Assembly: GCA_902778665.1 (NCBI GenBank)
Contig: CACYYN010000004.1
Location: forward strand, 27,194-91,193
DNA from: Oscillospiraceae bacterium
Lineage (GTDB): Bacteria > Bacillota > Clostridia > Oscillospirales > Oscillospiraceae
Direction of reading: 5' to 3'
Length of the DNA stretch: 64,000 nucleotides
Each line of letters starts with the position of its first letter. The first letter of the stretch is position 1. Of this stretch, positions 13,740-62,884 are shown in pieces. The translations under genes and the position numbers were made by a program. The notes beneath the pieces are model-generated. The model had not been told where the DNA came from. It saw only the letters and a list, made by a program, of their open reading frames with translations, and ran no database searches.

Positions 13740-14320
13740 AGCTGATTCTTGCCAGTAACAATGCCAATAAGCTGAGAGAGTTTCGCGAGCTGGTGAAAGG
13801 GCTTGATATCGAGCTCCTGAGTCAGCGGGAGGCGGGATGTGATTTTGAAGTGGAGGAAACCGGCACTACCTTTGAGGAAAACGCCTATCTGAAAGCCTCC
13901 GCTGTGACGGAGGCTACGCACTGCGCTGCGGTTGCTGATGACTCCGGGCTGTGCGTCGATGCTCTGGACGGAGAGCCGGGTGTTTATTCTGCCCGATACG
14001 GACTGGGACATGCTGCCTCTGATCGTGAACGCTATGAATATCTGCTGAAAAAGCTGGAGGGCGTGGAAAACCGCACGGCCCGCTTCGTGTGCTGCATTTG
14101 CTGCACCCTTCCTGACGGACGTGTGATCCGGTCCAGAGGCGAGTGTGAGGGAGAGATTATGCAGGATGCAAAGGGAAGCAACGGCTTCGGTTATGATCCG
14201 GTCTTTCATCCCCTGTGCACGGAGAAACGAATGGCGGAGCTGACTCCGGAAGAAAAAAATGCCATATCCCATAGAGGCAAGGCTCTGCGTGCTTTCATAG
14301 AGCAGCTGCGCAGCCTGTAA
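13736..14320 (+). CDS. rdgB: XTP/dITP diphosphatase (RdgB/HAM1 family)
   Basis: House-cleaning enzyme that hydrolyses inosine and xanthosine triphosphates to monophosphates. The 194-aa sequence shows the family N-terminus LILASNNANKLREF, the ETGTTFEENAYLKA metal-site segment, ADDSGLCVDALDGEPGVYSA, and GSNGFGYDPVF near the C-terminus, with ISHRGKAL at the end. All expected motifs are intact. It is translationally coupled to ftsY (ATGA). Confidence 0.95.
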   Translation: MKLILASNNANKLREFRELVKGLDIELLSQREAGCDFEVEETGTTFEENAYLKASAVTEATHCAAVADDSGLCVDALDGEPGVYSARYGLGHAASDRERYEYLLKKLEGVENRTARFVCCICCTLPDGRVIRSRGECEGEIMQDAKGSNGFGYDPVFHPLCTEKRMAELTPEEKNAISHRGKALRAFIEQLRSL

Positions 14321-14344
14321 AATAACAGGAGAGGACGGAGCAAT

Positions 14345-17272
14345 ATGAATACCAGCCTTTATCTGGCACAATCCTATCAGGATGCATGGGGCGACTATCA
14401 GCGTTCGCTCCGAAACACGTCCTTTCCGGTGTGGGACTATGTGTTTTTAACAGCCAGCAATTCTCATCAGGCTGAGGGTTTTCGCGCCCAGCTTGAGGCA
14501 CGGAGAGCGTTTCTCCCTGAGCGTACCGTCTTTGAAGTGATCCCCGATGAGGGGGGTGTCCGGATAGGCAGCGGGGGAGCGACGCTCTCCGTGCTTCGCG
14601 TCATCCGGGAAAAGGAATCATCCTTCACAGGCAAACGAATTCTCGTGATCCACAGCGGGGGTGACAGCCGGCGTATTCCCCAGTATTCCGCCCTGGGCAA
14701 GCTCTTCTCACCGGTGCCGCACGAGCTGCCGGACGGCCGCCCTTCTACCCTTTTTGATGAGTTTATGATTGCCATGTCTGCCGTCCCCGGCAGAATGAGG
14801 GAGGGGATGCTCCTTTTAAGCGGAGATGTGCTGCTGCTGTTCAACCCGCTGCTGATTGATTACTCCGGCCACGGGGCCGCTGCTATCAGTTTTAAGGAAA
14901 ATGTGAGCACCGGGAAAGACCACGGTGTTTTCCTCCGGGGAGAGGACGGAACCGTGAGAGCCTTCCTGCACAAGCAGAGCGAGGAGACGCTCACCGCTTC
15001 CGGTGCTGTGAACAGTCGTGGCGAGGTGGATATAGACACCGGTGCCGTGATTTTCGGTGTTGACATGCTGCAAAGCCTTTATGATCTGATCTCCCGCAAC
15101 GGGCAGACAGATGAGGAGAAATATTCTGCCTTTGTCAACGACAAAGTACGTCTGAGTCTTTACGGTGACTTTTTATACTGTCTTGCATCCGATTCCACAC
15201 TGGAACAGTATTACCGGGAAAAGCCGGAAGGTGATTTCTGCACGGAACTTCTGAAAGCCCGTGAGCAGGTATGGGCTGCACTGAGGCCCTACCGGCTGAA
15301 GCTCCTGCGGCTGGCTCCCGCCAGATTTATTCATTTCGGCACCTCGGCTGAGCTTCTGCATCTGATGGATAAGGAAATCGGCCAGTTCAGCCATCTGGGA
15401 TGGAACAGTCGGGTAAACTGCTCCATGGACAGAGGTGCAGGCTATAATTCCGTTCTTTCCGGTCGGGCAGAGCTGGGAGAGCACTGTTATCTGGAACATT
15501 CCTATATCCACGGCGGCGCAAAAATCGGAGAGGGATGTGTGATTTCCTGCCTGGAAGTTCCGGGCGGAATGACCGTCCCGCCTCATACGGTTCTGCACGG
15601 CCTCAAACAGATGAACGGCAGGTTTGTTTGCCGGATCTACGGAGTTTCGGACAACCCGAAAGAGTCTCTGCTGTTCGGGAAAAAGCTGGAGGGAGACTTC
15701 TGGGATCCAGACGAGGCCCATACCCTCTGGAATGCAAAACTCTATCCCGAATGCGATACGGTATCCGAAGCGGTTTCCATGGCAATGGAGCTCTTCCGCA
15801 TGGGTATGACGGGTGAATGGCCGGAGCAGTGGTTTGCACTGCCGAGAAAGTCCCTTGCCTCCGGCTTCCGGGATGCTGATGTCCGTGCAATTCTGAGCTG
15901 GAGCGGCAGGATGGGTGAGCTCGTTGCCATGAACCATATTTCTGCCATGATCCGGAAATCTGTGCCGGCTTCAAAAGGCAGCCTTCCTTCGTGCCTGACG
16001 GACGTGCAGGAGGCGTGGTTGCGGGATCATCTCAGCCGGGCAGATGTCAGCGAGGAAATGCGCCTTCACTATTATGTGGGGACAGCCCTCGGCACGGCAG
16101 AAGGCGAAAAGGAAGCCGCGGAAGCCTTTGCCTGTCTCCGCCGTGCCATTCTGAAGGAAACCCTCTCGGATCTCCGGGAAAACACGGACGCCAGAATTGT
16201 TATGGAGGAGCACACCGTTTCTCTGCCGCTGCGTGTCAACTGGGGAGGCGGATGGTCTGACACCCCGCCCTACTGCAACGAAAACGGAGGCACTGTGCTC
16301 AATGCGGCAATTCTTCTCAATGGGGAGCGCCCTGTGCGCGTAACACTGAGGCGGCTGACAGAGAAGAAAATTGTGTTTGAAAGCCGGGATATGGATGCCC
16401 GTGGGGAGTTTACCGCTATAGAGCCTCTGCAGCGAGTGGGGGATCCCTTTGATGCGTTTGTTCTGCAGAAGGCAGCTCTGCTCGCCTGCGGAATCCTGCC
16501 GGAATCAGGCGGCAGCCTTGATGCCGTGCTGGAGAGACTGGGCGGAGGGTTTTCCATGGATACGGAGGTTACAGGTGTTCCCCAGGGCTCAGGCCTTGGC
16601 ACGAGCAGTATTCTGGCAGCTGCCTGCGTGAAGGCGCTTTGCGAATTCACGGGTATCCGCTATTCCGAATCAGACCTATACGGAAGAGTACTCTGCATGG
16701 AGCAGATGATGTCTACCGGCGGCGGCTGGCAGGATCAGATCGGCGGTGTGACAGACGGCATCAAATACATCACCTCCCGTCCGGGGCTGAAGCAGAACGT
16801 GCATGTAGAGCATGTAGCGCTGGAGGAGGACGTCCTTGCAGAGCTGAACAGTCGCTTCGCTCTGATCTATACCGGGCAGCGGAGGCTCGCAAGAAACCTC
16901 TTGCGTGATGTGGTGGGCCGATATATCGGCAACGAGCCGGATACGCTTTACGCCCTCAATGAGATACAGCGCAAGGCTGCCCTGATGCGTTTTGAACTGG
17001 AGCGCGGGCATGTGGACGCTTTCGCAGCTTTACTCAGCGAACACTGGGAACTGAGCAAGAAGATTGATGCCGGTTCCACCAATACGCTACTGGATCAGAT
17101 ATTCGATGCCGTGGATGACCTGATCGACGGGCGAATGGTCTGCGGAGCGGGAGGCGGAGGGTTCCTGCAGGTAATGCTGAAGAAAGGTGTAACGAAGGAA
17201 ATGCTTCAGGCAAGGCTCAAATCCGTTTTCCAGGATACGGATATCAACGTCTGGCCCTGCACCCTGATCTGA
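14345..17272 (+). CDS. Bifunctional L-fucokinase / fucose-1-phosphate guanylyltransferase
   Basis: A 975-aa fusion of the Fkp/FUK type, which makes GDP-L-fucose from free L-fucose. The N-terminal half is a nucleotidyltransferase-like domain with HSGGDSRRIPQYSALGK and the FDEF segment. A left-handed-helix-like middle section follows (ENCY-type turns around residues 360 to 430). The C-terminal part is a GHMP kinase: LRVNWGGGWSDTPPYC near residue 625, GVPQGSGLGTSSILAAA near 743, and GAGGGGFLQVML near 935. Length matches the known fusion enzymes. A good Shine-Dalgarno (AGGAGAGGACGG) precedes ATG 14345. The product could feed a fucosylated surface glycan; a related sugar (for example a heptose or D-arabinose) is not excluded. 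Confidence 0.85.
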   Translation: MNTSLYLAQSYQDAWGDYQRSLRNTSFPVWDYVFLTASNSHQAEGFRAQLEARRAFLPERTVFEVIPDEGGVRIGSGGATLSVLRVIREKESSFTGKRILVIHSGGDSRRIPQYSALGKLFSPVPHELPDGRPSTLFDEFMIAMSAVPGRMREGMLLLSGDVLLLFNPLLIDYSGHGAAAISFKENVSTGKDHGVFLRGEDGTVRAFLHKQSEETLTASGAVNSRGEVDIDTGAVIFGVDMLQSLYDLISRNGQTDEEKYSAFVNDKVRLSLYGDFLYCLASDSTLEQYYREKPEGDFCTELLKAREQVWAALRPYRLKLLRLAPARFIHFGTSAELLHLMDKEIGQFSHLGWNSRVNCSMDRGAGYNSVLSGRAELGEHCYLEHSYIHGGAKIGEGCVISCLEVPGGMTVPPHTVLHGLKQMNGRFVCRIYGVSDNPKESLLFGKKLEGDFWDPDEAHTLWNAKLYPECDTVSEAVSMAMELFRMGMTGEWPEQWFALPRKSLASGFRDADVRAILSWSGRMGELVAMNHISAMIRKSVPASKGSLPSCLTDVQEAWLRDHLSRADVSEEMRLHYYVGTALGTAEGEKEAAEAFACLRRAILKETLSDLRENTDARIVMEEHTVSLPLRVNWGGGWSDTPPYCNENGGTVLNAAILLNGERPVRVTLRRLTEKKIVFESRDMDARGEFTAIEPLQRVGDPFDAFVLQKAALLACGILPESGGSLDAVLERLGGGFSMDTEVTGVPQGSGLGTSSILAAACVKALCEFTGIRYSESDLYGRVLCMEQMMSTGGGWQDQIGGVTDGIKYITSRPGLKQNVHVEHVALEEDVLAELNSRFALIYTGQRRLARNLLRDVVGRYIGNEPDTLYALNEIQRKAALMRFELERGHVDAFAALLSEHWELSKKIDAGSTNTLLDQIFDAVDDLIDGRMVCGAGGGGFLQVMLKKGVTKEMLQARLKSVFQDTDINVWPCTLI

Positions 17273-24916: not shown

Positions 24917-27292
24917 ATGAGCTTTTTTGAAAAATCATTATTGACACTGGAACTGCCTGCAGTGCTGAAAATGCTTTCGGAACAGGCAGTGAGTGCTCCT
25001 GCCAAGGAGCAGTGCCTTGCACTGATGCCTTCTGTAGAGCATGCAGAAGTTGCCCTCCGCCTGGAGGAGACTACCTGTGCCTGCACCATGATGACGGTGC
25101 GGGGCAGCCCCTCCTTCTCCGGCGTGAAGGATATCCGGCCTTCTCTGGCCCGTGCTGATCTGGGCGGTGCCCTGAACACCCGTGAACTGCTGGATATTGC
25201 AGCGCTTCTCCGGTGTGCAAGGCTGGTGAGAGGTTATGTGGCGGATGACAGTGTAGGCAGAACGAAAATTGACCACCTTTTCTCTGCCCTTCGCGCCAAC
25301 AAATATCTGGAGGAGAAAATCTCCTCCTCCATCACCGGAGAGGATGAAATTGCAGACGGAGCCTCCTCCGACCTGGCTGATCTCCGCCGTAAAATGCGTG
25401 CGGCAGCATCCCGTGCCAGAGAAGCCCTACAGAAGATTATTTCCTCGCCTTCCTATGCCAAAGTGCTGCAGGAGCCGATTATCACCATGCGCTCCGAGCG
25501 CTATGTGGTCCCGGTAAAGGCGGAATATAAAAACTCGGTTCCCGGCCTGGTGCATGACATCTCCGCCACCGGCGCAACCCTGTTTATCGAGCCCATGGGG
25601 GCTGTCAAGGCAAACAATGAGCTGCGGGAGCTGGCGGCAAAGGAGAAGCTGGAGGTGGAGCGGATTCTTGCGGAGCTGTCCGCAGAGTGTGCTGCCCACC
25701 GGGCAGATATGGAGTCTGACTGGTATCTGCTGGTTCGGCTGGATGTGATTTTTGCCAAAGCAAAGCTCTCCTACGCACTGGGCTGCAGTCCTGCTGTACC
25801 GGGAAATGAGATTGTCCTTCGCCGGGCACGTCATCCCTTGCTGAACCGTGACACTGCCGTACCCATCGATGTGGAGCTGGGGCGCGGATTTGACACTCTG
25901 GTCATCACCGGCCCCAACACGGGAGGTAAGACAGTCAGTCTCAAAACCATCGGCCTGCTCTCGGCCATGAACCAGTGCGGGCTTCACATCCCTGCTTCTG
26001 ACGGCAGCACCCTTCCGGTTTTCAGTCATATTCTGGCAGATATCGGTGATGAGCAGAGCATTGAACAGAATCTCTCCACCTTCTCTGCCCACATGACCAA
26101 TATTGTCAACATTCTTGAGGAGTGTGACGAGCACTCTCTGGTCCTTTTTGATGAGCTGGGTGCCGGCACTGACCCTGCAGAGGGTGCGGCCCTAGCGGTG
26201 TCCATTATCGAGCATGTGCGAAAGAAGGGGGCAGTGATCGCTGCCACCACCCACTATACAGAGCTGAAGTTTTATGCTACCAACGAACCCGGGGTTCTCA
26301 ATGCCTCCTGCGAGTTTGATATTGAGACACTGCGGCCAACCTACCATCTGCTGATGGGCATTCCGGGCAAGTCCAACGCCTTTGCCATTTCCCGTCGGCT
26401 GGGGCTTCGGGATGATATCATTGAGGACGCGAAAAACCGTGTCAGCACCGACAATGCAAAGTTTGAGGCCACAGTGGAGAAGCTGGAGCAGATGCGTGTT
26501 CTGCTGGAGAAGGACAGAGAAGCCCAGCAGCAGAAGCTGCGTGAGGCGGAGGACAATGCCCGTCAGGCTGCCCGCGTGAAGGCTGAGCTGGAGGTTCGGC
26601 TGGAGAAGGCGGATGTGAAAGCCCGGCGAGAGGCCGAGCGGATCATTGGAGAGGCGAGAGAAACTGCTGAGCGTGTTTTTGCCGAGCTGGATGAGATGAA
26701 AAAGCATCTCAATGAGGAAGATGATGTCCATCGTATCAATACGGCTCGCAATGAACTGCGGCGAAGTCTCAATGATGCAGAAAACAGCCTCAATCCTGCC
26801 CAGACACCTCAGGAAGACACCCGGCAGTCCGCCCGTGAAATTCGGGTGGGCGATATGGTAGAGATCCGTTCCATGGGCATTCATGCGGAGGTCATTTCCG
26901 TTTCACAGGACCGTACGCTTACCCTCAAGGCCGGTGCCATGACCGTTTCTGCCAAGGAGAATGAGGTCTATCTGCTGGAAGGAAAGGCTGCACAGAAGCC
27001 GAAAAAGAAGCAGGCTGTTTCATCCGGGGCATCTCTTCGCTCCTCAGCCTTTCATCCGGAAGTTGACCTCCGGGGAATGGAATCTATTGAAGCCGTCGCT
27101 ACGGCCGAGCAGTTTATTGACGGTGCGGTCATGGCAAAGGTGTCTCCCATCCGCATCATTCATGGCAAGGGCACAGGTGCCCTCCGTACGGCTATTCATC
27201 AGATGCTGCGACGCAATAAAGCAGTGAAATCCTTCCGGCTCGGTGTTTTCGGAGAAGGTGAAACCGGCGTTACGATCGTGGAGTTGAAATAG
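24917..27292 (+). CDS. mutS2: MutS2 family protein
   Basis: MutS2 is a ribosome-collision and recombination-related ATPase with endonuclease activity. N-terminal lever and clamp domains are followed by Walker A GPNTGGKTVSLKT near residue 334, and LVLFDELGAGTDPAEGAALA (Walker B). A long coiled coil rich in Glu/Arg/Ala covers about residues 515 to 640. A KOW-like segment (VGDMVEIRSMG) is next, and a C-terminal Smr nuclease domain (VDLRGMESIEA, IIHGKGTGALR) ends the protein. The length of 791 aa is typical. Confidence 0.96.
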   Translation: MSFFEKSLLTLELPAVLKMLSEQAVSAPAKEQCLALMPSVEHAEVALRLEETTCACTMMTVRGSPSFSGVKDIRPSLARADLGGALNTRELLDIAALLRCARLVRGYVADDSVGRTKIDHLFSALRANKYLEEKISSSITGEDEIADGASSDLADLRRKMRAAASRAREALQKIISSPSYAKVLQEPIITMRSERYVVPVKAEYKNSVPGLVHDISATGATLFIEPMGAVKANNELRELAAKEKLEVERILAELSAECAAHRADMESDWYLLVRLDVIFAKAKLSYALGCSPAVPGNEIVLRRARHPLLNRDTAVPIDVELGRGFDTLVITGPNTGGKTVSLKTIGLLSAMNQCGLHIPASDGSTLPVFSHILADIGDEQSIEQNLSTFSAHMTNIVNILEECDEHSLVLFDELGAGTDPAEGAALAVSIIEHVRKKGAVIAATTHYTELKFYATNEPGVLNASCEFDIETLRPTYHLLMGIPGKSNAFAISRRLGLRDDIIEDAKNRVSTDNAKFEATVEKLEQMRVLLEKDREAQQQKLREAEDNARQAARVKAELEVRLEKADVKARREAERIIGEARETAERVFAELDEMKKHLNEEDDVHRINTARNELRRSLNDAENSLNPAQTPQEDTRQSAREIRVGDMVEIRSMGIHAEVISVSQDRTLTLKAGAMTVSAKENEVYLLEGKAAQKPKKKQAVSSGASLRSSAFHPEVDLRGMESIEAVATAEQFIDGAVMAKVSPIRIIHGKGTGALRTAIHQMLRRNKAVKSFRLGVFGEGETGVTIVELK

Positions 27293-52877: not shown

Positions 52878-53093
52878 TTATGAAATGCTGTTCAGAAGAT
52901 CTTTCAGGCTTTGTAGCTCTGCTGCAGACAGCGAAATTCCTTTCCCAGGTTTGGTATGGTCTTCATTCCACGCGCGAATGTCGAATTTCGGGTCATTTTC
53001 ACCCCATTTAACAATGTTGAGCTCTTTTTTCCATTTCCCCTCAGAGTCAAGAACCCCAAGATTCTGGATGATTTCAAATGTTAAGTCTGCCAT
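52878..53093 (-). CDS. YdbC/PC4-type single-stranded DNA-binding protein
   Basis: A 71-aa member of the YdbC family, the bacterial relatives of coactivator PC4, which bind single-stranded DNA as dimers. The family sequence is clear: NIVKWGENDPKFDIRAW followed by PGKGISLSAAELQSLKDLL. It is complete. The start lies 14 bp after the stop of the helicase gene, same strand, with AAGGAGG in the gap, so both are probably one transcript. After its stop a further 33 codons in the same frame stay open (52776-52877). Confidence 0.88.
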   Translation of the reverse strand: MADLTFEIIQNLGVLDSEGKWKKELNIVKWGENDPKFDIRAWNEDHTKPGKGISLSAAELQSLKDLLNSIS

Positions 53094-53107
53094 TGTTATA
53101 GTCCTCC

Positions 53108-56100
53108 TTATGATTTTTTGTTTTTCACTTGATTAAGCAGATCTGTAAAGCTATTGTTTGATTTACTGATTGAATTAGAATGGTCAGTTTTTTTCGTGCT
53201 GCCAATGCTGCCTGCGCTACCCTTGGGATTTTTCAATATATCTTCAAATGAATTACCTGCGGTATTGTTTCTCGAAGAAGATCTTGAGGGAGCATCTTTT
53301 ACACCTTTACCGGTTTTATCAGAATCAGGGGCGGGGGTAGCTACAGAAAAAGAAGGTGTCTCAGGCTTATCGGTATTTACTCCTTCAGGAATTCCTTCGA
53401 TAGGCTCTTCAGGCATAGCAGAGGAGGGAACTGATATCGGCTTCTCCGGTTCTTCAGGCTCTAAAACAGGATCTTTCGGAGAAACTGGAGTTTCATCCTT
53501 GCCAGGTTTCCCTGTGTTACCTGCATCATCCCCGGGAACAACGGGTTCGCTGATCCCTGGTACTTGGCCACCAAGCCCTATCAGTATGGTTTCGGGATCA
53601 ATAGGATCTTCTTCACCGTCCATCATCCGCAGCAGCAACCCGGCTCTTGCCTTGACACGTTCAAGCAGCTCAGTTGTCCGACCTTCCGGCTGGGTATCAA
53701 CAGACTCCTCCGGCTGAATGCCAAATGAAGATAACTCCGTAAGAACACGTTCAATCGTCTTTTCAGGATCGCGGAAGTATTCACTGCCCCTGATGCGGAT
53801 GAATCTCCATCCGGAACGTTCCAGGATGCACTGCCGTTCCATGTCTTCCCGGATCTTTTCTTCTCCGCTGTGCCACCTTTCTCCGTCGCATTCGATGACA
53901 ACTTTTTTCTCTCCACAGAGTGCAACCATATCAAGTCGATACGCTCCGACCTTCCATTGCTGCACAAGATGGTAACCTCGGGCTGTCAATGCTTTCGCAA
54001 CACCCTCTTCAAAAGGTGATTCAGAGTCATGCTCGATCTGCTGTGCCTTGATTGCAAATCCTTCTGGATTCAGGGAATAATCAATCAGCCTTTTTCTCAT
54101 GTCATTCGGCTGCAGGTCATTCGCCGCATCGAGAGAATCTACAACCCAAAGCTGGTCTTTGGCTCGGCTGACAGCAACGTTATACCGTTTTTTCGTGGCC
54201 TGATCTACGCCTTCACCAACCATTCTGAGAGGTCCGGTGCCTTCATTGCTGTCGACGACACTCAGGAAGATAACATCCCTTTCATCACCCTGAAAGTTTG
54301 CGGAATTGCCGCAAAGAACACAGCGTTTCTCAAGCTCTCGCTGGTCAATATGATTGACAAGAAGCTGCTGGATGGCTTTCGCCTGATCATCACCAAGCAG
54401 GGAGATCACACCGAAGGTTTTTCCGTCATACTCCGGCTGCTCCATGCAGGCTTTTATCAGAGCCACAATGGTGAGTGCCTCTCGAGGATTCACTTTCCTT
54501 GGCTCCAGCCGTTTTCCATCCGCAACACGATAATTCACAACTGCCGGGAGAAGATTGCTGCTGCCTGCATCCCGGAGGGGCTTGATTTTATAATCATAGC
54601 TCAGCATGTTGCTAAAGCCGATGATCTCCGGCACGCAGCGGAAGTGTTCTCTCAGCATCAGCGGCTGGAAGGTGGTCATGGCTATGTCGTATATCGAGCG
54701 TTTACTGTCATATAGCGACGCGTTCGGAATCTTATCTCTGATATACTCATTCTGCAGGGCGATCATCTTTTCGGTTTCAGAACCGACTGCCATAGGGCTG
54801 ACCTGCTTGTCATCGCCAACGATGATCAGCTTTTTGCCCATATAAAGGATAGCAAGGCTTGAAAGGTCAGCCTGGCTCGCCTCATCGATGATGACGATAT
54901 CAAATGTGTTATCACCGGGTTCAAAGTTTTCCAGCACCTTGCCGATCGGCATAATCCAGGCCGGGACGGCTTTCTGGCAGATTGCCATGTTTCGTTTGGC
55001 TGAAGCACGCAGTTCTGCAATTCTCTTCTTGTTTCCGGTGCATTTTCCGATAGATTTGACAGCCTGCTTCCATCCCTGCAGAGCCTGCTTCATGGTCAGG
55101 TCCTGTTCGGTTCTTCGCAGAAGATGATACCATGCACTGTATTCTGCGTATTCAGCCGTGACGGCACGATAGTTTCTGCTGAGCTGCACACTCTTTTTCT
55201 GCAGTTCACTGTAGGGCTGAGCATTGATTTCTTCCAGTTTGCCGGAGAGCTGTTTCCATTTCCAGGCATCCAGAATATCGTCAGGGAAGGTGGATTTCCC
55301 ATGGATTCCTTCTCTGTTCGCAATGGCCTCAGCCCACTGCGGGGCAAAGGGTTGCAGCTTTTCCAGCAATTCTTTTCGCTTTGCCTGCAGCGTATACTTG
55401 CAGTAAAGTGTGCCGAGTGTATGATAGGCTGTGCTGTATGCGGCAGGGTTTCTGTCTTCTGTTGCCTGCAGAAGTCTCATGCAGGACGGAGACAGGTTCA
55501 TGCTTACTTCTGATATGGTTGCCGTCTGCCTGTCAATTTTCCTGATATTTTCACTGCTGACGAGTGCGGCATACTGGCATTTGCAGATTGCCGGCAGAAT
55601 GCGGATAACCGTCTGGAGGATCTTCTCCGTAACCGTTGTGTCAGAATCCATTGGAGAAAAGCCAAACAGATCCTGTTCTGGCATATGGTTTAAAGAAAGC
55701 AGTCTCCGCAGCTCTTTATAATCCTCTTTATACCAGCCAAGATAACGCTCAATCAGCGGAATCCAGTTCTTCGCCACATGTTCAGGATCACTCCGATCAA
55801 GTTCGCTGAAAGGAGTGACACCGAAGGGAACGAGCAGTGCATCCCAGTATGCGGCACACTGGTTCCGCATTTTATCAAGCATGATAAAGTCAAGGAAGAT
55901 TCTGCAATCATCTGCACTGCTGATTTCCTCCCCGTCGATTCTGACGGACTCCAGTGCTTCAGAGAGTCTCTTCTTCAGGAGGAACCTGCTGATTTTTCCT
56001 TTGGCTTTGAACTTTTCCTCTAATTCGATAAACTCGCCTTCATATTCCTCATAGTGATAGGTTTCGGAATAGGTTATTCTCCTGCCAAATGCATGGGAAA

Positions 56101-58267
56101 CAATCGAGTCAGAAAACTCGCTGGTATCCTCAATCTGATTGAGAAGCATATTCCACCGGTCAACATACTGGCCGCCTTTTCTCCCGTCCACTGCAGCCTG
56201 AATCATCCAGGGTTCCGCAGTTTCGAATGATTGGATGAAGGAGAGAAGTTCACGAAGTTCCTGCTTCCCGGAGTAGGGCACAGTGAATTCTCGGCCATCA
56301 AAGCGGTAGTAGACAGACTGTGCTGCACGGCTGTTGCTGACTGCCCAGCCCATATTAGCAGCGAGTTTCTGTATCGCCGCATCAGATTTCTGGACTGTCT
56401 CACAGGCAGCGGAAAAATCCTCCGGAGAGAGCAATTCCTCAGGACAGGGGAGTGAGCTGTCAAGCTCAGCTTCTTCATCTTCTGTGAGAGCGGTGTTGCT
56501 GTGATAGAGATCTGCCAGTTCCGAAACGGTAAGTGGCAAAGGTTCCCCAATCAAAACCTTGCCGGGAATGTAGCTGAGATCCTCTGCATGCTCCACAACA
56601 AACGCTGCAGCACGGGAAGGGGATATCCCTTCGCCGTTAATCACGATGGAGCTGTATTCCTGGTTGATAAGGGCGAAAAGTTTTTTTCTTGTTTCCGACA
56701 GTTCCTTCATGATGGCTGCACGTTTTGCCTGTGTTTCACCCATCTTTCTGTGCAGAGCACCGGAAGAGTGATTTGCCATATAATCCGAGATTCCATCCAC
56801 AGATTTTTCCATGTCTGCGTTTGAATCATCCAGGACGGAAACACAAAGGCTCTGTATCCCCTCAGGCACCTTTTCCTTCAGCACATTCAGTGCCTTGGAT
56901 GTGTAGCTCGTGATCAGCACACTTTTGCCTTTCGCAAGAAAATGCCCTGTCAGATTTGCTATGGTGTGTGTTTTGCCTGTGCCTGGAGGCCCCTGAACCA
57001 GTACGGCATTATAGGCTTCAATGCGTTTTGCAATTTCCAGCTGTTCCCGGTTTGCGGCTTTCGAGAGCAGAATGTCCTTGCTCTCTCCACCCACTTCTGC
57101 CAGCTGTTCTTCTATGCTGAGATCATCCGGATCCTCCGGTATCTCAATAAATCCACCGGCGACAAGCTCACGGATCGGATCCGGCACAAAACCGGTTTCT
57201 TCTATTTTCTGCAGGATGCTGTCGATGGCCTTCAGCGTTCCGTCCACTCTTTTTCTGGTGATGAACACCGGGTTCATCTTCATAAGATAGCGGTGCTCTT
57301 TCTGCCAGTTTTCCGGAACTTCATCCTTGCAGAACAGGGATTCGGAGGAGAAATACCGTACCATCTCCATCAGATAGTCCGGGGTGTCGTTTCTGTCCAG
57401 CGGGTGATAGTCATACTGCATGAGTTTGTCACGCAGATCTCCCAACTTATCCAGATTGATATCCGGCATGGCCTGGAAGAGCACAGAATAAAGGTCTGTG
57501 TTATTGTCGGTGTCTTCCACGGTAATTGTGTTTTTAATCGGGTCGTACCGTACCATAACACGTCTTGTCAGCACAACCTGATCTATTTCGGAATCCCTGT
57601 CGATCAGCTCACCGTTGGCTACGATCATCTCGTATTCAATGTCACGCTGAAGGTCAATATATTGCTGATAGAATTCCATGAAGAGGGAACGGGTTGCTGA
57701 AATCATTTTCTGCCGCTCCGCCCATACAGCCCGTTTCTTTTTCCAGGCATCATAAGCGGCAACCCTGTCTGCATTCTCCTCAAAGAGGACTATGGTCACT
57801 TCTTCATCAGGACTTTTTTCTTCAATTTTATACTGATCTTCCGTAGATTCTACCGTCCCGAGAAGTGACAGCTGCTCAGGCTGTGCCTGCTTCGGCTCAA
57901 CCCAGTTAAAAATCTCCTGTCCGGATTGATCAAACACCCGTCTTTGCAGAACCTTAGGCTCTTTATAATAATCATCCCAACCGGGCTCCAGCCATTTGAG
58001 TAAATCCTGATCCGGCTGGGGGCACTTTTCGTGCTCGGGCTTATGCACAGAGAAGAGAACAGAACTGAGTTCTCCCTCTTCTGCTTCCGTCCTGTCACGA
58101 TAGGTGATTTTGATGTTTTCCCTGTCCTCATGGATCGCATTGATCGCTTTATGCCATGGATAATCTGAGACCTTATAATAGGTCTTCTGCTTCAGGGCAT
58201 TGAGTTCCTTTGTGAATTTGAAAAGAGCCAGGGCCCTCTCCTGTACACTGTATTTGTTTTCATCCAT
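53108..58267 (-). CDS. Large SF1 helicase with C-terminal DUF559/Vsr-like nuclease
   Basis: A 1719-aa protein. Residues ~1 to 400 are an N-terminal region of unknown fold. Walker A GPPGTGKTHTIANL is near residue 425, with a large insertion (about 500 to 1080) of mainly helical sequence. Walker B DIVIIDEASQADLSS is near 1125, with GDDKQVSP, then HFRCVPEIIGFSNML, and VAVSRAKDQLWVVD near 1370 (Upf1/DNA2-like SF1). A PD-(D/E)XK/Vsr-type domain follows at about 1430 to 1520 (RLDMVALCGEKKVVIECDGERWH, split as RLDMVAL and VIECDGE). The last ~180 residues are Pro/Glu/Ser-rich and probably disordered. Likely a DNA defence or repair protein. The start has GGAG 9 bp upstream. Confidence 0.88.
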   Translation of the reverse strand: MDENKYSVQERALALFKFTKELNALKQKTYYKVSDYPWHKAINAIHEDRENIKITYRDRTEAEEGELSSVLFSVHKPEHEKCPQPDQDLLKWLEPGWDDYYKEPKVLQRRVFDQSGQEIFNWVEPKQAQPEQLSLLGTVESTEDQYKIEEKSPDEEVTIVLFEENADRVAAYDAWKKKRAVWAERQKMISATRSLFMEFYQQYIDLQRDIEYEMIVANGELIDRDSEIDQVVLTRRVMVRYDPIKNTITVEDTDNNTDLYSVLFQAMPDINLDKLGDLRDKLMQYDYHPLDRNDTPDYLMEMVRYFSSESLFCKDEVPENWQKEHRYLMKMNPVFITRKRVDGTLKAIDSILQKIEETGFVPDPIRELVAGGFIEIPEDPDDLSIEEQLAEVGGESKDILLSKAANREQLEIAKRIEAYNAVLVQGPPGTGKTHTIANLTGHFLAKGKSVLITSYTSKALNVLKEKVPEGIQSLCVSVLDDSNADMEKSVDGISDYMANHSSGALHRKMGETQAKRAAIMKELSETRKKLFALINQEYSSIVINGEGISPSRAAAFVVEHAEDLSYIPGKVLIGEPLPLTVSELADLYHSNTALTEDEEAELDSSLPCPEELLSPEDFSAACETVQKSDAAIQKLAANMGWAVSNSRAAQSVYYRFDGREFTVPYSGKQELRELLSFIQSFETAEPWMIQAAVDGRKGGQYVDRWNMLLNQIEDTSEFSDSIVSHAFGRRITYSETYHYEEYEGEFIELEEKFKAKGKISRFLLKKRLSEALESVRIDGEEISSADDCRIFLDFIMLDKMRNQCAAYWDALLVPFGVTPFSELDRSDPEHVAKNWIPLIERYLGWYKEDYKELRRLLSLNHMPEQDLFGFSPMDSDTTVTEKILQTVIRILPAICKCQYAALVSSENIRKIDRQTATISEVSMNLSPSCMRLLQATEDRNPAAYSTAYHTLGTLYCKYTLQAKRKELLEKLQPFAPQWAEAIANREGIHGKSTFPDDILDAWKWKQLSGKLEEINAQPYSELQKKSVQLSRNYRAVTAEYAEYSAWYHLLRRTEQDLTMKQALQGWKQAVKSIGKCTGNKKRIAELRASAKRNMAICQKAVPAWIMPIGKVLENFEPGDNTFDIVIIDEASQADLSSLAILYMGKKLIIVGDDKQVSPMAVGSETEKMIALQNEYIRDKIPNASLYDSKRSIYDIAMTTFQPLMLREHFRCVPEIIGFSNMLSYDYKIKPLRDAGSSNLLPAVVNYRVADGKRLEPRKVNPREALTIVALIKACMEQPEYDGKTFGVISLLGDDQAKAIQQLLVNHIDQRELEKRCVLCGNSANFQGDERDVIFLSVVDSNEGTGPLRMVGEGVDQATKKRYNVAVSRAKDQLWVVDSLDAANDLQPNDMRKRLIDYSLNPEGFAIKAQQIEHDSESPFEEGVAKALTARGYHLVQQWKVGAYRLDMVALCGEKKVVIECDGERWHSGEEKIREDMERQCILERSGWRFIRIRGSEYFRDPEKTIERVLTELSSFGIQPEESVDTQPEGRTTELLERVKARAGLLLRMMDGEEDPIDPETILIGLGGQVPGISEPVVPGDDAGNTGKPGKDETPVSPKDPVLEPEEPEKPISVPSSAMPEEPIEGIPEGVNTDKPETPSFSVATPAPDSDKTGKGVKDAPSRSSSRNNTAGNSFEDILKNPKGSAGSIGSTKKTDHSNSISKSNNSFTDLLNQVKNKKS

Positions 58268-58337
58268 AGCGTTTTCTCCGATTCGGGTGTTTCCGGATGC
58301 CAGTCAACCAGTGTAAAGGTGGTATCCCGGCCCCTAT

Positions 58338-58366
58338 TTGATTTTTCTTTTTGTATCTGCTATATT
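58338..58366 (+). promoter_or_regulatory. Promoter of the PD-(D/E)XK gene
   Basis: TTGATT (58338-58343), 17-bp spacer, TATATT (58361-58366), in the 151-bp gap between the divergent helicase and nuclease genes. Confidence 0.65.
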
Positions 58367-58418
58367 GAAAAAAATGATTCCTCAACCAATTACGGATATT
58401 ATAAGGGAGTGATATAAG

Positions 58419-59336
58419 GTGGAAGGTAATGAAGTATACATGATATCTGACATTTCGAGGGAAATCCAGTCAGATCTGACAGCGGAACAGTTAAGCCGGT
58501 ATAAAAGTAAACTGCAGGCAAAAGCACTGAACGATGTTCTGGTGGAAGAAGGCTACCTGTTCGATAAGGAACATGGCAGAGGCATAACGGAAGCAGGACG
58601 TGCTGCAGGTATTTACACGGAAGAAAGGGTCAGCCCTAAAAACGGAGAAAGCTATGAACAGATCCTCTTTTCAGAAAAAGCCTATGACCTGGTGACGGAA
58701 GCCGTCAGGGCGAGATATCCGGAGTTATTCCGTTTAGAAACGGACACTACATACCTGGGAAATTATTGCTGCATGATCAGTGTGAAAGATTTTCTTTCAA
58801 CTGATTGTAACAGCTGGCTCGCAACCATGCAGGCAAATTACAGCAGGGTTTGTACTCATCCGCTCACGGAAGCTCAGATCCGGGCATGGAAAGATGAATT
58901 CCGGGTAATCCAGCAGGGTATACCGTCCAAATATAGCGATCTATCCATGATTTTTGAATACGTTATTCCCGCAAACCAGAAGGAAGGTCTGGAACCCGAC
59001 CCACGATATATCATTCGTCCGGACCTTATCATGCTCAGTTCAGATACGGTTGCCATCTTCGAATTCAAGCAACTGGATATTGACAATAGAATTACATTAC
59101 GACCGGCCAAGAAATACAAAAGAAGTATTCAAAGATATCACAGTAAATCCATTGGCATGCGCAAAAAGCTGGCCCTTGTTTTAACCGTAAGGGTAGGTTA
59201 CAGATGCAGGCATCATCGCTCCGTCACTTGTTCTCCGGACATTCTGCCGGAGATATTAGATGAATTCTTCGGCGGCCACAGTTCACCGTATCCGAATCCG
59301 GATGAATGGATAAAGAGTGAGTTTGCATTAAGATAA
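58419..59336 (+). CDS. PD-(D/E)XK nuclease-like protein
   Basis: A 305-aa protein without a named family. The putative nuclease core is IRPDLIMLS followed by AIFEFKQLD (about residues 197 to 217), the D-x(n)-ExK pattern with the Glu-x-Lys as EFK. The N-terminal ~90 residues look like a separate helical part (ending GITEAGRAAGIYTEERV). The start is GTG 58419, 9 bp after GGGAG; an ATG at 58440 is possible. It is divergent from the helicase gene and may work with it. More AT-rich than the core genome. Confidence 0.7.
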   Translation: MEGNEVYMISDISREIQSDLTAEQLSRYKSKLQAKALNDVLVEEGYLFDKEHGRGITEAGRAAGIYTEERVSPKNGESYEQILFSEKAYDLVTEAVRARYPELFRLETDTTYLGNYCCMISVKDFLSTDCNSWLATMQANYSRVCTHPLTEAQIRAWKDEFRVIQQGIPSKYSDLSMIFEYVIPANQKEGLEPDPRYIIRPDLIMLSSDTVAIFEFKQLDIDNRITLRPAKKYKRSIQRYHSKSIGMRKKLALVLTVRVGYRCRHHRSVTCSPDILPEILDEFFGGHSSPYPNPDEWIKSEFALR

Positions 59337-60104: not shown

Positions 60105-62069
60105 GTGATTGGTACAAGTGCTGAAAAGAAGTTACATACACTTCCCTTACAAGCGTTATACGATTTAGCGGAATTGAAAAATATCCAGGAAGAGGAGATT
60201 AAAAACAAAGAGAAAGGGGAAGTAATCCAAAAACTCTTATGCACAAACATAACTGAAGATGAAATCGATACAGCTGTTAATGACTATATCTATGGGTCAA
60301 GGGTTTCTTTTACATTATGGGGATTCTCCAGGAAACTTAATAGTGAAGATCTCCTGAAATTGCTCGATTTGGATGGGCATGAGGAGGAATATGAATTTGA
60401 AAATGGCCTGCGGAATTTACATATAATTGCAGTGAGAGACAACGACGATAGGCTGGAACTGCTTTATAATTACAGTAAAGAGTATATTTATCTTAGCGAG
60501 GAAGGGCGCACGGAGAGTGTTTGGGAGTTGCACCGGGGCTGTTTGTGGATAGGAAATGATAATAATTATCTTGCCAGCATCAGTAAGCATGAAAAGATGA
60601 TGTCGTTTATGCTTCAGTTTATTGGAAAGATTTTGGATAATTCTTTGTTTCAGATTAAGCCGCCAAAAAAAGCCATCGAAAGATGTATTAACTCCTCAAT
60701 AATGAGCAGGGTTGTATTACAGGGAGTAGCGGGAGAAAAAACTATAATTTCTAATTCCTATGGTCTTACAGAGGAGCAAGAACGTGAACGTGACAGAGTA
60801 AAAAATAGCAGGTTCGATACTTCCGGCAGCTATATTGCTGATATATCAAAAGACGTAACTGCGACGATTAAATACAATGTGACAAAAGGGAGTCTAGGGG
60901 TATTTAAGCACCTTTCCTCTAAAATCCTGTTTGCGTGGTCTAGGCAAGCTATTGATATCATATTAGAAGAAATAGAGAATTTAAAAACCAAAACTGCTGA
61001 AGAAATCTATCGGGAAGTAGGAGCAGAGATAAAATGGGGCAATTTCTCCCAACTGACATCAAGCCTTAATTGGTTCCTCACCGAGGTTATTGCTGCACAT
61101 AACCGTGAGGAGGGGTCTCGCTACACTATACCAGAGGAATTCAGAGATGTACTTCAAAACGATAAGCTATTTCATAAATTACCAATGATTTATTGTGAGC
61201 AGTGCGAATCTTATGATATTCCGATCTGTGTTAACTGTGGTAGTCGCCTTTCATATAATCGGAAAGGGATACTGGAATGTAGTTGTGCGGCTCCTTTAAG
61301 GTTTACTTGTGCGGAGCAACATTGGTCTTGTCGAGAATCTCCATGGTATATTCCTACACAAAAGTTGAAGGATTTGATCGATAACAATATTAAATTTCTT
61401 TTCCGAGATAGAAATATGGAATATAGCATGTGTATTATGGAGAATGATTTGCATATTGTTATAGATGCTGGTGCAGATTACTCTCAGGTAGAGATCCCGT
61501 TTTCTGATATAACATGCTTTAGAAATGACCTTTTACCAGATGCCAGTATAAAAGAAAAAGTTGTATATATGAAGGAGAAATGTAATTGTTCTTGCTCATA
61601 TATCAATATTGAGAAGTGCACTAGTGATCCTAAGCTTTATTGCTTACCAAAACTGTTTTATGGGATCATTCCATCTTTCAGACCACAGCCACATAAAGGG
61701 AGCGAATTTGGAGATGTATCTGGTGAAGTAGAAGTTAATTGGAAAAATTATCAGATGATAGGTATTATTAAGAAAAATAGTGCAAACAAAACGAAAAAAG
61801 GAAGAAAAGCAGATCCGGAAACTCTGATCCAAAAGCCCCTGCTTTCAACATCACCCGAGGGGGAAGAAATCATTCGCCAGTTCGTTGAACAGGGTATGAC
61901 AGATAATAGAGTGGATGTTATCGCTATTGTAGCACCTCAGTATTTTGATCGCGGATTGAAGGGCACTCTTAACATGCTTGCAAAATATATAAATAAGAGA
62001 ATTGTTTATATTGGCTTAGATGAGGTTTGCCAACTGGTCTCTAAGAACGATAATATAGCGCTGGGCTAA
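60105..62069 (+). CDS. Large cysteine-rich protein of unknown function
   Basis: A 654-aa protein I do not recognise. Residues ~8 to 58 resemble a SAP/Rho-N-like helical module (LPLQALYDLAELKNI then KGEVIQKLL). Residues ~364 to 412 form a zinc-binding region (CEQC, CVNC, CSC, and C...HWSC). A second Cys cluster is near 492 to 512 (CNCSCSY and KCTSD...YC). The last ~45 residues (VIAIVAPQYF, IVYIGLDEVCQL) resemble the closing strands of some restriction endonucleases, but the catalytic acids are not clear. The start is GTG 60105, 8 bp after AAGGAG. It is AT-rich and looks foreign. DNA binding with nuclease activity is my guess. Confidence 0.75.
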   Translation: MIGTSAEKKLHTLPLQALYDLAELKNIQEEEIKNKEKGEVIQKLLCTNITEDEIDTAVNDYIYGSRVSFTLWGFSRKLNSEDLLKLLDLDGHEEEYEFENGLRNLHIIAVRDNDDRLELLYNYSKEYIYLSEEGRTESVWELHRGCLWIGNDNNYLASISKHEKMMSFMLQFIGKILDNSLFQIKPPKKAIERCINSSIMSRVVLQGVAGEKTIISNSYGLTEEQERERDRVKNSRFDTSGSYIADISKDVTATIKYNVTKGSLGVFKHLSSKILFAWSRQAIDIILEEIENLKTKTAEEIYREVGAEIKWGNFSQLTSSLNWFLTEVIAAHNREEGSRYTIPEEFRDVLQNDKLFHKLPMIYCEQCESYDIPICVNCGSRLSYNRKGILECSCAAPLRFTCAEQHWSCRESPWYIPTQKLKDLIDNNIKFLFRDRNMEYSMCIMENDLHIVIDAGADYSQVEIPFSDITCFRNDLLPDASIKEKVVYMKEKCNCSCSYINIEKCTSDPKLYCLPKLFYGIIPSFRPQPHKGSEFGDVSGEVEVNWKNYQMIGIIKKNSANKTKKGRKADPETLIQKPLLSTSPEGEEIIRQFVEQGMTDNRVDVIAIVAPQYFDRGLKGTLNMLAKYINKRIVYIGLDEVCQLVSKNDNIALG

Positions 62070-62217: not shown

Positions 62218-62571
62218 ATGAATAGGTTTGAAGTAGAGTTTTATGAGACTGAAACAGGCGAACAGCCTGCAAGACAATTCCTACTATCGCTTGATAAAAA
62301 GATGAGAGCGAAAATGGTAGATACAATCAGCATTTTGCAGGATAACGGGAACGAGCTTAGAGAGCCTTATAGTAAATACCTGTCGGAGGGGATTTTTGAA
62401 CTCAGAGCGAAAGTCGGTTCGGATATTACTAGAGTTTTGTATTTCTTTTATGTAGATAAGCATATAATACTGACGAACGGCTTTATTAAGAAAACACAGA
62501 AGACACCGAAAAAGGAAATTGAACGTGCCAAGGGGTATCGGGCGGATTATCTGAGAAGGAAGGGTAAATAA
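62218..62571 (+). CDS. higB: HigB-type toxin (RelE/Gp49 superfamily)
   Basis: A 117-aa ribosome-dependent mRNA interferase candidate. The family features are the N-terminal VEFYETETGEQPARQFLLSL, the central YSKYLSEGIFELRAKVGSD, and RVLYFFYVDKHIILTNGFIKKTQKTP near the end (split at residue ~95). GGGGTGG lies upstream of ATG 62218. It precedes the antitoxin gene by 1 bp, the toxin-first order of higBA. Confidence 0.92.
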   Translation: MNRFEVEFYETETGEQPARQFLLSLDKKMRAKMVDTISILQDNGNELREPYSKYLSEGIFELRAKVGSDITRVLYFFYVDKHIILTNGFIKKTQKTPKKEIERAKGYRADYLRRKGK

Positions 62572-62572
62572 A

Positions 62573-62884
62573 ATGAGCGTAAAGTTTGATGATTTTCTTC
62601 AGGAACAGCTCCAGGATCCTGAATTCAGAAAAGAATATGAAGCACTACAACCTGAGCACGCCATTATACAGGCTATTATTGATGCGAGGCGGCAATCCGG
62701 AATGACGCAGAAAGAATTAGCAGAGAAGACAGGGATAGCCCAAGGCGATATCAGTAAACTGGAGAGAGGAAATGCAAATCCGTCTATCCGGACATTGCAG
62801 CGGTTGGCTGCAGGGATGGGAATGACGATCAGGCTGGAGTTTCAGCCAGTTCCGGCAAAGGTGGCTGCACAGAGAAAAGCTTGA
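62573..62884 (+). CDS. higA: HigA-type antitoxin, XRE family
   Basis: A 103-aa antitoxin with a C-terminal helix-turn-helix (RRQSGMTQKELAEKTGIAQG then ISKLERGNANPSIRTLQRLA). The N-terminal ~35 residues should bind the toxin. The start is ATG 62573, 1 bp after higB. It should repress the operon through the dyad at 62175-62196. A terminator follows. Confidence 0.93.
   Translation: MSVKFDDFLQEQLQDPEFRKEYEALQPEHAIIQAIIDARRQSGMTQKELAEKTGIAQGDISKLERGNANPSIRTLQRLAAGMGMTIRLEFQPVPAKVAAQRKA

Follow-up and report, generated by a model that had tools for sequence, protein, structure and literature searches.

The DNA considered here is a 64,000-nt stretch of an Oscillospiraceae genome (GenBank assembly GCA_902778665.1, contig CACYYN010000004.1, forward-strand positions 27,194 to 91,193; hereafter, the window), the right end of which is the end of the contig (our contig C4, position 91193). 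It holds a gene for a large helicase-nuclease of superfamily 1 (SF1) and, directly behind it on the same strand, a gene for a small PC4/YdbC-type single-stranded DNA (ssDNA)-binding protein. A sequence-only reading had joined these two open reading frames (ORFs) and a third, divergent one into a candidate defence system, and ORF calling places all three where that reading had put them. Loci and genomes used for comparison bear our own L and G numbers. The features of the locus, in window coordinates, are as follows.

53108..58267, minus strand: SF1 helicase-nuclease, 1719 aa (P0001; ORF call, Pfam, three full-length homologues)
57860..57874, minus strand: QLSLL, residues 132-136 of P0001, in a variable N-terminal linker (a single short motif, which may be chance)
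56684..57052, minus strand: N-terminal RecA-like half, AAA_11, residues 406-528 (Pfam, alignment)
54140..54667, minus strand: C-terminal RecA-like half, AAA_12, residues 1201-1376 (Pfam)
53732..54013, minus strand: Vsr-type nuclease domain, MTES_1575/DUF559, residues 1419-1512 (Pfam)
53111..53602, minus strand: low-complexity C-terminal tail, about residues 1556-1719 (from the sequence; putative role only)
52878..53093, minus strand: PC4/YdbC-type ssDNA-binding protein, 71 aa (P0002; matches to PF02229 and PDB 2ltd)
58419..59336, plus strand: predicted PD-(D/E)XK nuclease, 305 aa (P0003; ORF call, alignment), judged not to be part of the system

The description of P0001 as an SF1 helicase with a C-terminal Vsr/DUF559-type nuclease is borne out by Pfam, with matches to AAA_11 (1.7e-18; 67.8 bits against a cut-off of 27), AAA_12 (2.4e-16; 60.3 against 27), and MTES_1575 (4.5e-28; 97.6 against 38.2), all of which pass their cut-offs, and to DUF559 (1.2e-9). 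Its three full-length homologues share 52, 45, and 41% identity with it, and because full-length homologues occur in other genera, the ORFs are not chance. The Walker A motif (GPPGTGKT) is unchanged across four aligned helicases, and a Walker B motif (DEAS, residues 1128-1131) lies N-terminal to the AAA_12 match. Candidate catalytic residues of the nuclease, judging from alignment, are E1420, D1446, E1459, and D1461, equivalents of which are invariant in seven YdbC-linked helicases, and the Vsr-type domain is predicted to cleave DNA. One homologue (L061/L039) has a nuclease without the conserved D (YRLDMV aligned to YILGVV) and is, thus, possibly a helicase only.

The small protein, P0002, matches the PC4 family (PF02229) at 2.9e-11 and 43.1 bits, above the cut-off of 25, and YdbC of PDB entry 2ltd at E 3.2e-16; it aligns over almost its full length with Lactococcus lactis YdbC (2ltd/2ltt) and with SP_0782 (2l3a, 5zkl), such that it probably binds ssDNA as well. 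No PADLOC or NCBIfam model matches it, nor does any PADLOC model match the YdbC of locus L160. Its start lies 14 bp from the helicase stop, as the sequence-only reading had it; AAGGAGGA precedes its ATG, and the two proteins are apparently made from one operon.

Recurrence of the pair and the helicase tail

The pairing is not peculiar to the window. YdbC adjoins a helicase of the same family, on the same strand, at 14 loci (the window, L046, L047, L048, L050, L052, L053, L055, L057, L065, L072, L111, L113, and L160), or at 13 distinct loci after merging of the near-copies L046 and L050. At 11 of the 14 it lies downstream of the helicase, -20 to +14 bp from it if the likeliest starts are used, and at the other three (L055, L113, and L160) it lies upstream, 14-17 bp away; the YdbC frame of L055 is broken in its assembly. 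The linked loci belong to Bacillota, plus one to Fusobacteriota: the L113 pair is carried by a Fusobacteriota plasmid of 50 kb, in whose annotation YdbC is a “PC4/YdbC family ssDNA-binding protein” and the helicase an “AAA domain-containing protein.” A YdbC profile search of the remaining fetched helicase loci yielded no additional copy, and none was seen in longer stretches of L135-L142, which cover the upstream side, or in G759 and G747 (the upstream side of L071 falls beyond its contig end, and L131 and L160 are the same locus).

Within the order, 55 of 295 genomes have YdbC, at 58 places in all. Of the 57 places besides the window's, the 29 given as loci were fetched, and none of these stretches contains the helicase, so the window's YdbC differs from all 29 in adjoining one. 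Among 19 genomes with a helicase relative, seven have YdbC; the copy is linked in four (G696, G927, G679, and G785) and lies away from the helicase relative in G998, G653, and G951. We do not find it credible that chance put the two genes side by side at a dozen loci.

Linkage may go with the far end of the helicase. Past the nuclease, some homologues stop before position 1555 or no more than about 40 residues from it, and others continue for ~80-270 residues. Counts were made over loci assessable at the 3′ end, which omits L043, L044, L051, L054, L056, L058, L066, and L068 (less than 300 bp past the helicase stop, or no stop), the near-copy L050, and the broken or fragmentary L041 and L042; the broken copy L040 was retained as tail-less. 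On this basis, every YdbC found is beside a helicase with a tail: 13 of 25 such helicases have it, versus 0 of 27 tail-less ones (Fisher's exact test, 8e-6), and the same holds for helicases at ≥40% identity (12 of 17 versus 0 of 8; 0.0016). L067 has neither tail nor YdbC, and its close tree neighbour L047 has both. The tail may accompany YdbC and is a candidate contact for it.

Many tails terminate in a ~60-residue module, of which there are two forms (modules a and b). One, YID..SGIIWV..RGS..T.NKPAWRIM, is present at the loci with a downstream YdbC except the window, being more divergent in L048 and L057; the other, ..GGSLWIIGG..GGRATK..PGWW.K, is present in close kin without YdbC, with a variant in L055. 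Three pieces of these modules had no Pfam match, and a profile had no match in PDB. The L113 and L131 tails have twin FDFR/FDYR-type motifs, and that of the window has twin short motifs, NSFEDIL and NSFTDLL, close to its terminus (pattern NSF.D(I/L)L).

The QLSLL of the window helicase is what we take to be a possible sliding-clamp-binding motif, and it is a single short match located outside the tail. Across the family, the corresponding pattern, Q[LIMP][STDE]L[FL], appears four times in 4824 tail residues versus twice in 76380 body residues, and in 4 of 25 tails versus 0.086 expected by shuffling. This test was post hoc, the motifs having been noticed beforehand, and two of the four tails (L043 and L059) are close kin. 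These motifs provide a hint, from sequence, of recruitment to replication forks.

In phylogenies, nine of the linked YdbCs form one clade (support 100/99), separate from the 29 free-standing YdbCs, and those of L113 and L160 are weakly supported sisters (93/69). On a helicase-core tree of 50 rows, the presence of YdbC requires seven changes. Many forks of the YdbC tree are without resolution because the alignments have fewer than 80-odd columns, and a single origin of the linked YdbCs is not rejected by approximately unbiased (AU) tests (AU p 0.19 and 0.18); independent recruitment of YdbC is, therefore, suggested by the trees and not established.

Distribution and genomic surroundings

The helicase gene is accessory and patchy. 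It is present as one full copy in the window genome, and matches at ≤1e-40 occur in 4 of 300 genomes of the family (own included; one is a fragment at a contig end), with none in the five same-genus genomes listed. Within the order, 5 of 394 genomes (own included) match at 1e-40, the copies of G408 and G608 being broken or fragmentary, and within the phylum 32 of 398 (own included) match at 1e-60; species genomes, scanned by pattern, contributed 29 helicase loci. L040 and L041, in two same-order genomes, are broken or fragmentary copies, consistent with gene loss. Fixation in a core genome position, which the sequence-only reading had named as evidence against a defence role, is not the overall pattern, but two pairs of homologues that are distant and lack YdbC (L062/L070 and L064/L066) have common neighbours, so a fixed position is possible in some lineages. 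An empty-site comparison with same-genus genomes found only partial relatives, at 31-49% identity, of a flanking Nudix gene, and these weak relatives do not allow a clean comparison.

Integrases lie near L037 and L045 (by eye) and L113 (annotated). No helicase match at 1e-20 exists in 50,697 phage records. One search of IMG/VR was empty; others found the YdbC-linked L072/L161, a single contig, along with five loci that are more distant (L073 and L162-L165, several of them incomplete), in which no YdbC was found. Among plasmid records, 45 match the helicase at 1e-30, two of them covering 80% of the query; two of the top three such “plasmids” are 2.1 and 2.6 Mb in size and probably chromosomes.

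PADLOC or Pfam scans of flanking proteins, which were selected by eye, show defence genes around several relatives; such genes are not evident at the window. L072 lies beside HsdR and McrBC, which makes the viral label of its contig doubtful; L055 lies beside HKD-Snf2, type IIG restriction-modification (RM) proteins, and an AriA/OLD-like fragment; HKD-Snf2 follows L160; HsdM is 2.3 kb from the helicase stop in L057; and the L113 plasmid carries type I RM. As for loci where YdbC was not seen, L045 is beside a SIR2-type Argonaute (SIR2-pAgo) and HamA/HamB, and proteins matching type III restriction, AbiEii, PDC-S02, PglZ, and Orf5 lie close to L060, L114, L054, L121, and L136, respectively. At the usual place of YdbC, L045 has a 68-aa gene without a Pfam match and then a RimK-like ATP-grasp gene (positions 13960-15109), perhaps a peptide-modifying pair. 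A gene of 72-84 aa, not seen at the window, stands directly 5′ of the helicase in L046, L050, L043, L059, and L068; it is HTH_26 by Pfam in L046, and the others look alike by eye.

Within the window, four neighbours were scanned with PADLOC, and those on the left by Pfam only. A 654-aa protein (60105-62069, plus strand), in the AT-rich contig end (GC about 0.38), is without a match at E 0.1 in Pfam, PADLOC, or NCBIfam and has only its self-match among 200 genomes of the family. It is followed at 62218-62884 (plus strand) by a RelE/HigB-like protein (under its NCBIfam cut-off) and then an HTH protein of Cro/C1 type, which together may be a toxin-antitoxin pair; in PADLOC, the RelE-like protein matches NsnC (1.3e-13), and the HTH protein is also matched.

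The proposed module and its rivals

We think it slightly more probable than otherwise that the helicase (53108-58267) and YdbC (52878-53093) constitute a two-gene helicase-nuclease/ssDNA-binding module that acts on foreign DNA in a manner resembling Dna2 and RPA; its function would probably be anti-phage or anti-plasmid. What supports this by observation is the identity of both families, adjacency in multiple genomes, the finding of YdbC with tail-bearing helicases only, patchiness, and defence neighbours at several loci. The target would be invading or replicating foreign DNA: the helicase would open the duplex, YdbC would bind the exposed single strand and then recruit or stimulate the helicase-nuclease, probably via the variable C-terminal tail, as RPA does for Dna2, and the nuclease would then nick or degrade the DNA. 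A more elaborate version, which we hold to be rather doubtful, makes YdbC a built-in reference: docked on an exchangeable tail, it would coat the exposed strand and tell the nuclease which ssDNA to cut, clamp-like tail motifs would direct the complex to forks, and YdbC would perhaps have been paired repeatedly. By that version, the window module would read its own YdbC, whereas other helicase-nuclease systems read the phage single-stranded DNA-binding protein (SSB), and pairing may have taken place downstream in Bacillota, upstream in the L113/L160 branch, and perhaps separately at the window.

Several results weigh against the two-gene module. An adjacent YdbC is missing at 39 of the 52 assessable helicase loci; a predominance of YdbC-less homologues was what the sequence-only reading had said would count against it, and YdbC is thus the mark of a subset and not of the helicase family. 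The window's own YdbC, as well as those of L113 and L160, lies outside the nine-member clade, and the window tail carries neither module a nor module b. Once relatedness is controlled, the agreement between tail and YdbC is not significant because there are too few independent pairs: 1-4 agree and 0 disagree (median p 0.25 or 0.125 by direction, the test having been run with L131 as unlinked and repeated with it as linked), and module b alone gives 3-4 agreeing pairs and 0 against (p 0.125). PADLOC matches beside the window pair are confined to a partial PDC-S41 (in P0003) and the toxin-antitoxin-like pair; the linked loci L047, L048, L052, and L111 sit among genes that look ordinary by eye; and, since flanking proteins were picked by eye, we claim no enrichment of defence genes. 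The many loci without YdbC, together with a nearest PADLOC model (PDC-S37) that is an S-numbered candidate, would also suit a one-gene defence protein, to which YdbC is an optional accessory such as a general ssDNA-binding protein without a mechanistic role. We regard this as possible, although doubtful: adjacency recurs in both gene orders and in two phyla, the tail and YdbC are absent together from L067 and present together in L047, and nine linked YdbCs form a separate clade. A host enzyme of DNA repair or replication forks, the bacterial counterpart of Dna2 and RPA and not a defence system, would account for DNA2 being the best solved match (P-loop region only), for the excess of clamp-like motifs in tails, and for the common neighbours of two pairs of distant homologues; this we consider unlikely in view of the patchy presence of the gene, including its absence from the five same-genus genomes, the integrases near L037, L045, and L113, and the copies of G408 and G608, which are broken or fragmentary.

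Two further alternatives concern the partners themselves. YdbC could, as a regulator or in counter-defence, hold the helicase in check or change DNA topology, in the way that AcrIIA22, a nickase, works against Cas9: PC4-like folds include this nickase from clostridial islands (PMC8545432), and a stable pairing is compatible with an antitoxin-like role. However, the window YdbC matches classical YdbC (PDB 2ltd), and AcrIIA22, compared here by its description only, is reported in PMC8545432 as a 54-aa protein that has no homologue by sequence among proteins of known function; on these grounds, a regulator appears quite improbable. Very improbable indeed is the three-gene system, with the divergent nuclease as obligate partner, that the sequence-only reading had proposed. 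A common intergenic region of 151 bp (58268-58418) does separate the helicase from P0003, just as described, and the D...EFK nuclease core seen by that reading is plausible: although P0003 matches no Pfam family at E 0.1, D202, E215, F216, and K217 are kept in an alignment with four relatives. P0003 also has a weak, partial PADLOC match to PDC-S41 (2.6e-9). Yet the search for a conserved three-gene neighbourhood found the third gene beside the helicase at the window only: a threshold of E 0.01 gave no P0003 relative at any other helicase locus that was searched, and relatives occur in two same-genus genomes (G109 and G264), both without a helicase match. We, therefore, reject P0003 as a partner, and of the three genes said to act together, only the helicase and YdbC show recurrent linkage. 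P0003 has no plasmid match at 1e-3 and no viral relative. It looks modular: residues 25-122 are similar to the C-terminal portion of L079 and L080 proteins judged RecQ-like by eye, and in L078 its nuclease domain forms a fusion with a P-loop protein that resembles, by eye, a DUF2075/SLFN-g3 helicase.

For the two-gene module, the combination of a helicase-nuclease with its own small ssDNA-binding-type protein, which has solved relatives, makes a role in ssDNA coating directly testable, as nature offers versions without YdbC and a tail that may accompany it. If true, it would also assign a definite task to YdbC, a protein of wide occurrence.

Comparison with known systems

The nearest described proteins differ from the window pair in extent or in partner. 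The best PADLOC match of the helicase is PDC-S37 (206 bits, 1.7e-61), in two stretches; the better one spans residues 1062-1528 and model positions 882-1353 of 1550, in the C-terminal half, against a model that has no stated cut-off. Distant homologues (L124 and L134) match most of that model's length. PDC-S37 is modelled as one protein with no partner, the S in its name presumably denoting a single gene. The alignment with Hhe, an anti-phage helicase protein with DUF4011 (PADLOC Hhe; NCBIfam NF042953), takes in the helicase core and the nuclease region, at 119 and 171 bits, but the window helicase scores 170.8 bits against an NCBIfam cut-off of 2000, DUF4011 is not among its 23 Pfam matches (E 0.1), and, unlike Hhe, it has a YdbC partner. 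ProA (NCBIfam NF058533), on which a literature search found no paper, aligns with residues 395-1528 at 198.9 bits, below the cut-off of 1500. Judging from these scores, Hhe, ProA, and PDC-S37 are related to the helicase, which belongs to neither Hhe nor ProA and matches PDC-S37 in part. The PADLOC models of Nhi/AbiO reach only residues 407-454 (2.5e-4 and 2.4e-4), with no match beyond the P-loop.

The same pairing of helicase and Vsr-type nuclease is found in MTES_1575-type proteins, described in PMC3710099 as an SF-I helicase with a Vsr restriction endonuclease and a winged helix-turn-helix (DUF3320); HEPN, transglutaminase, and DUF3320 are not matched by Pfam in the window protein, and the tail of the L037 homologue has a DUF3320 match under the cut-off (2.1e-4). 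Dna2 with RPA is likewise a helicase-nuclease stimulated by an ssDNA-binding protein (PMC8586334), and DNA2 is the best solved relative of the window helicase by sequence, at residues 401-463 around the P-loop only (3.3e-9). The likeness to the window pair is in mode only: in Dna2 and RPA, the nuclease is placed differently and the ssDNA-binding fold is different. Nhi, Hna, Hachiman, and AbpAB also combine helicase and nuclease, with an activity tied to phage SSB according to PMC12904381 and PMC10732053, the former of which calls the mechanism of SSB detection by Nhi and Hachiman unknown; these systems react to a phage protein, whereas the window module encodes an ssDNA-binding-type protein of its own. 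A literature search, whose coverage left out most subscription journals, found no description of a helicase-YdbC pair. As judged by sequence comparison, the pair would add a new form to the known helicase-nuclease relatives (Hhe, ProA, and PDC-S37), with the YdbC partner as its new part.

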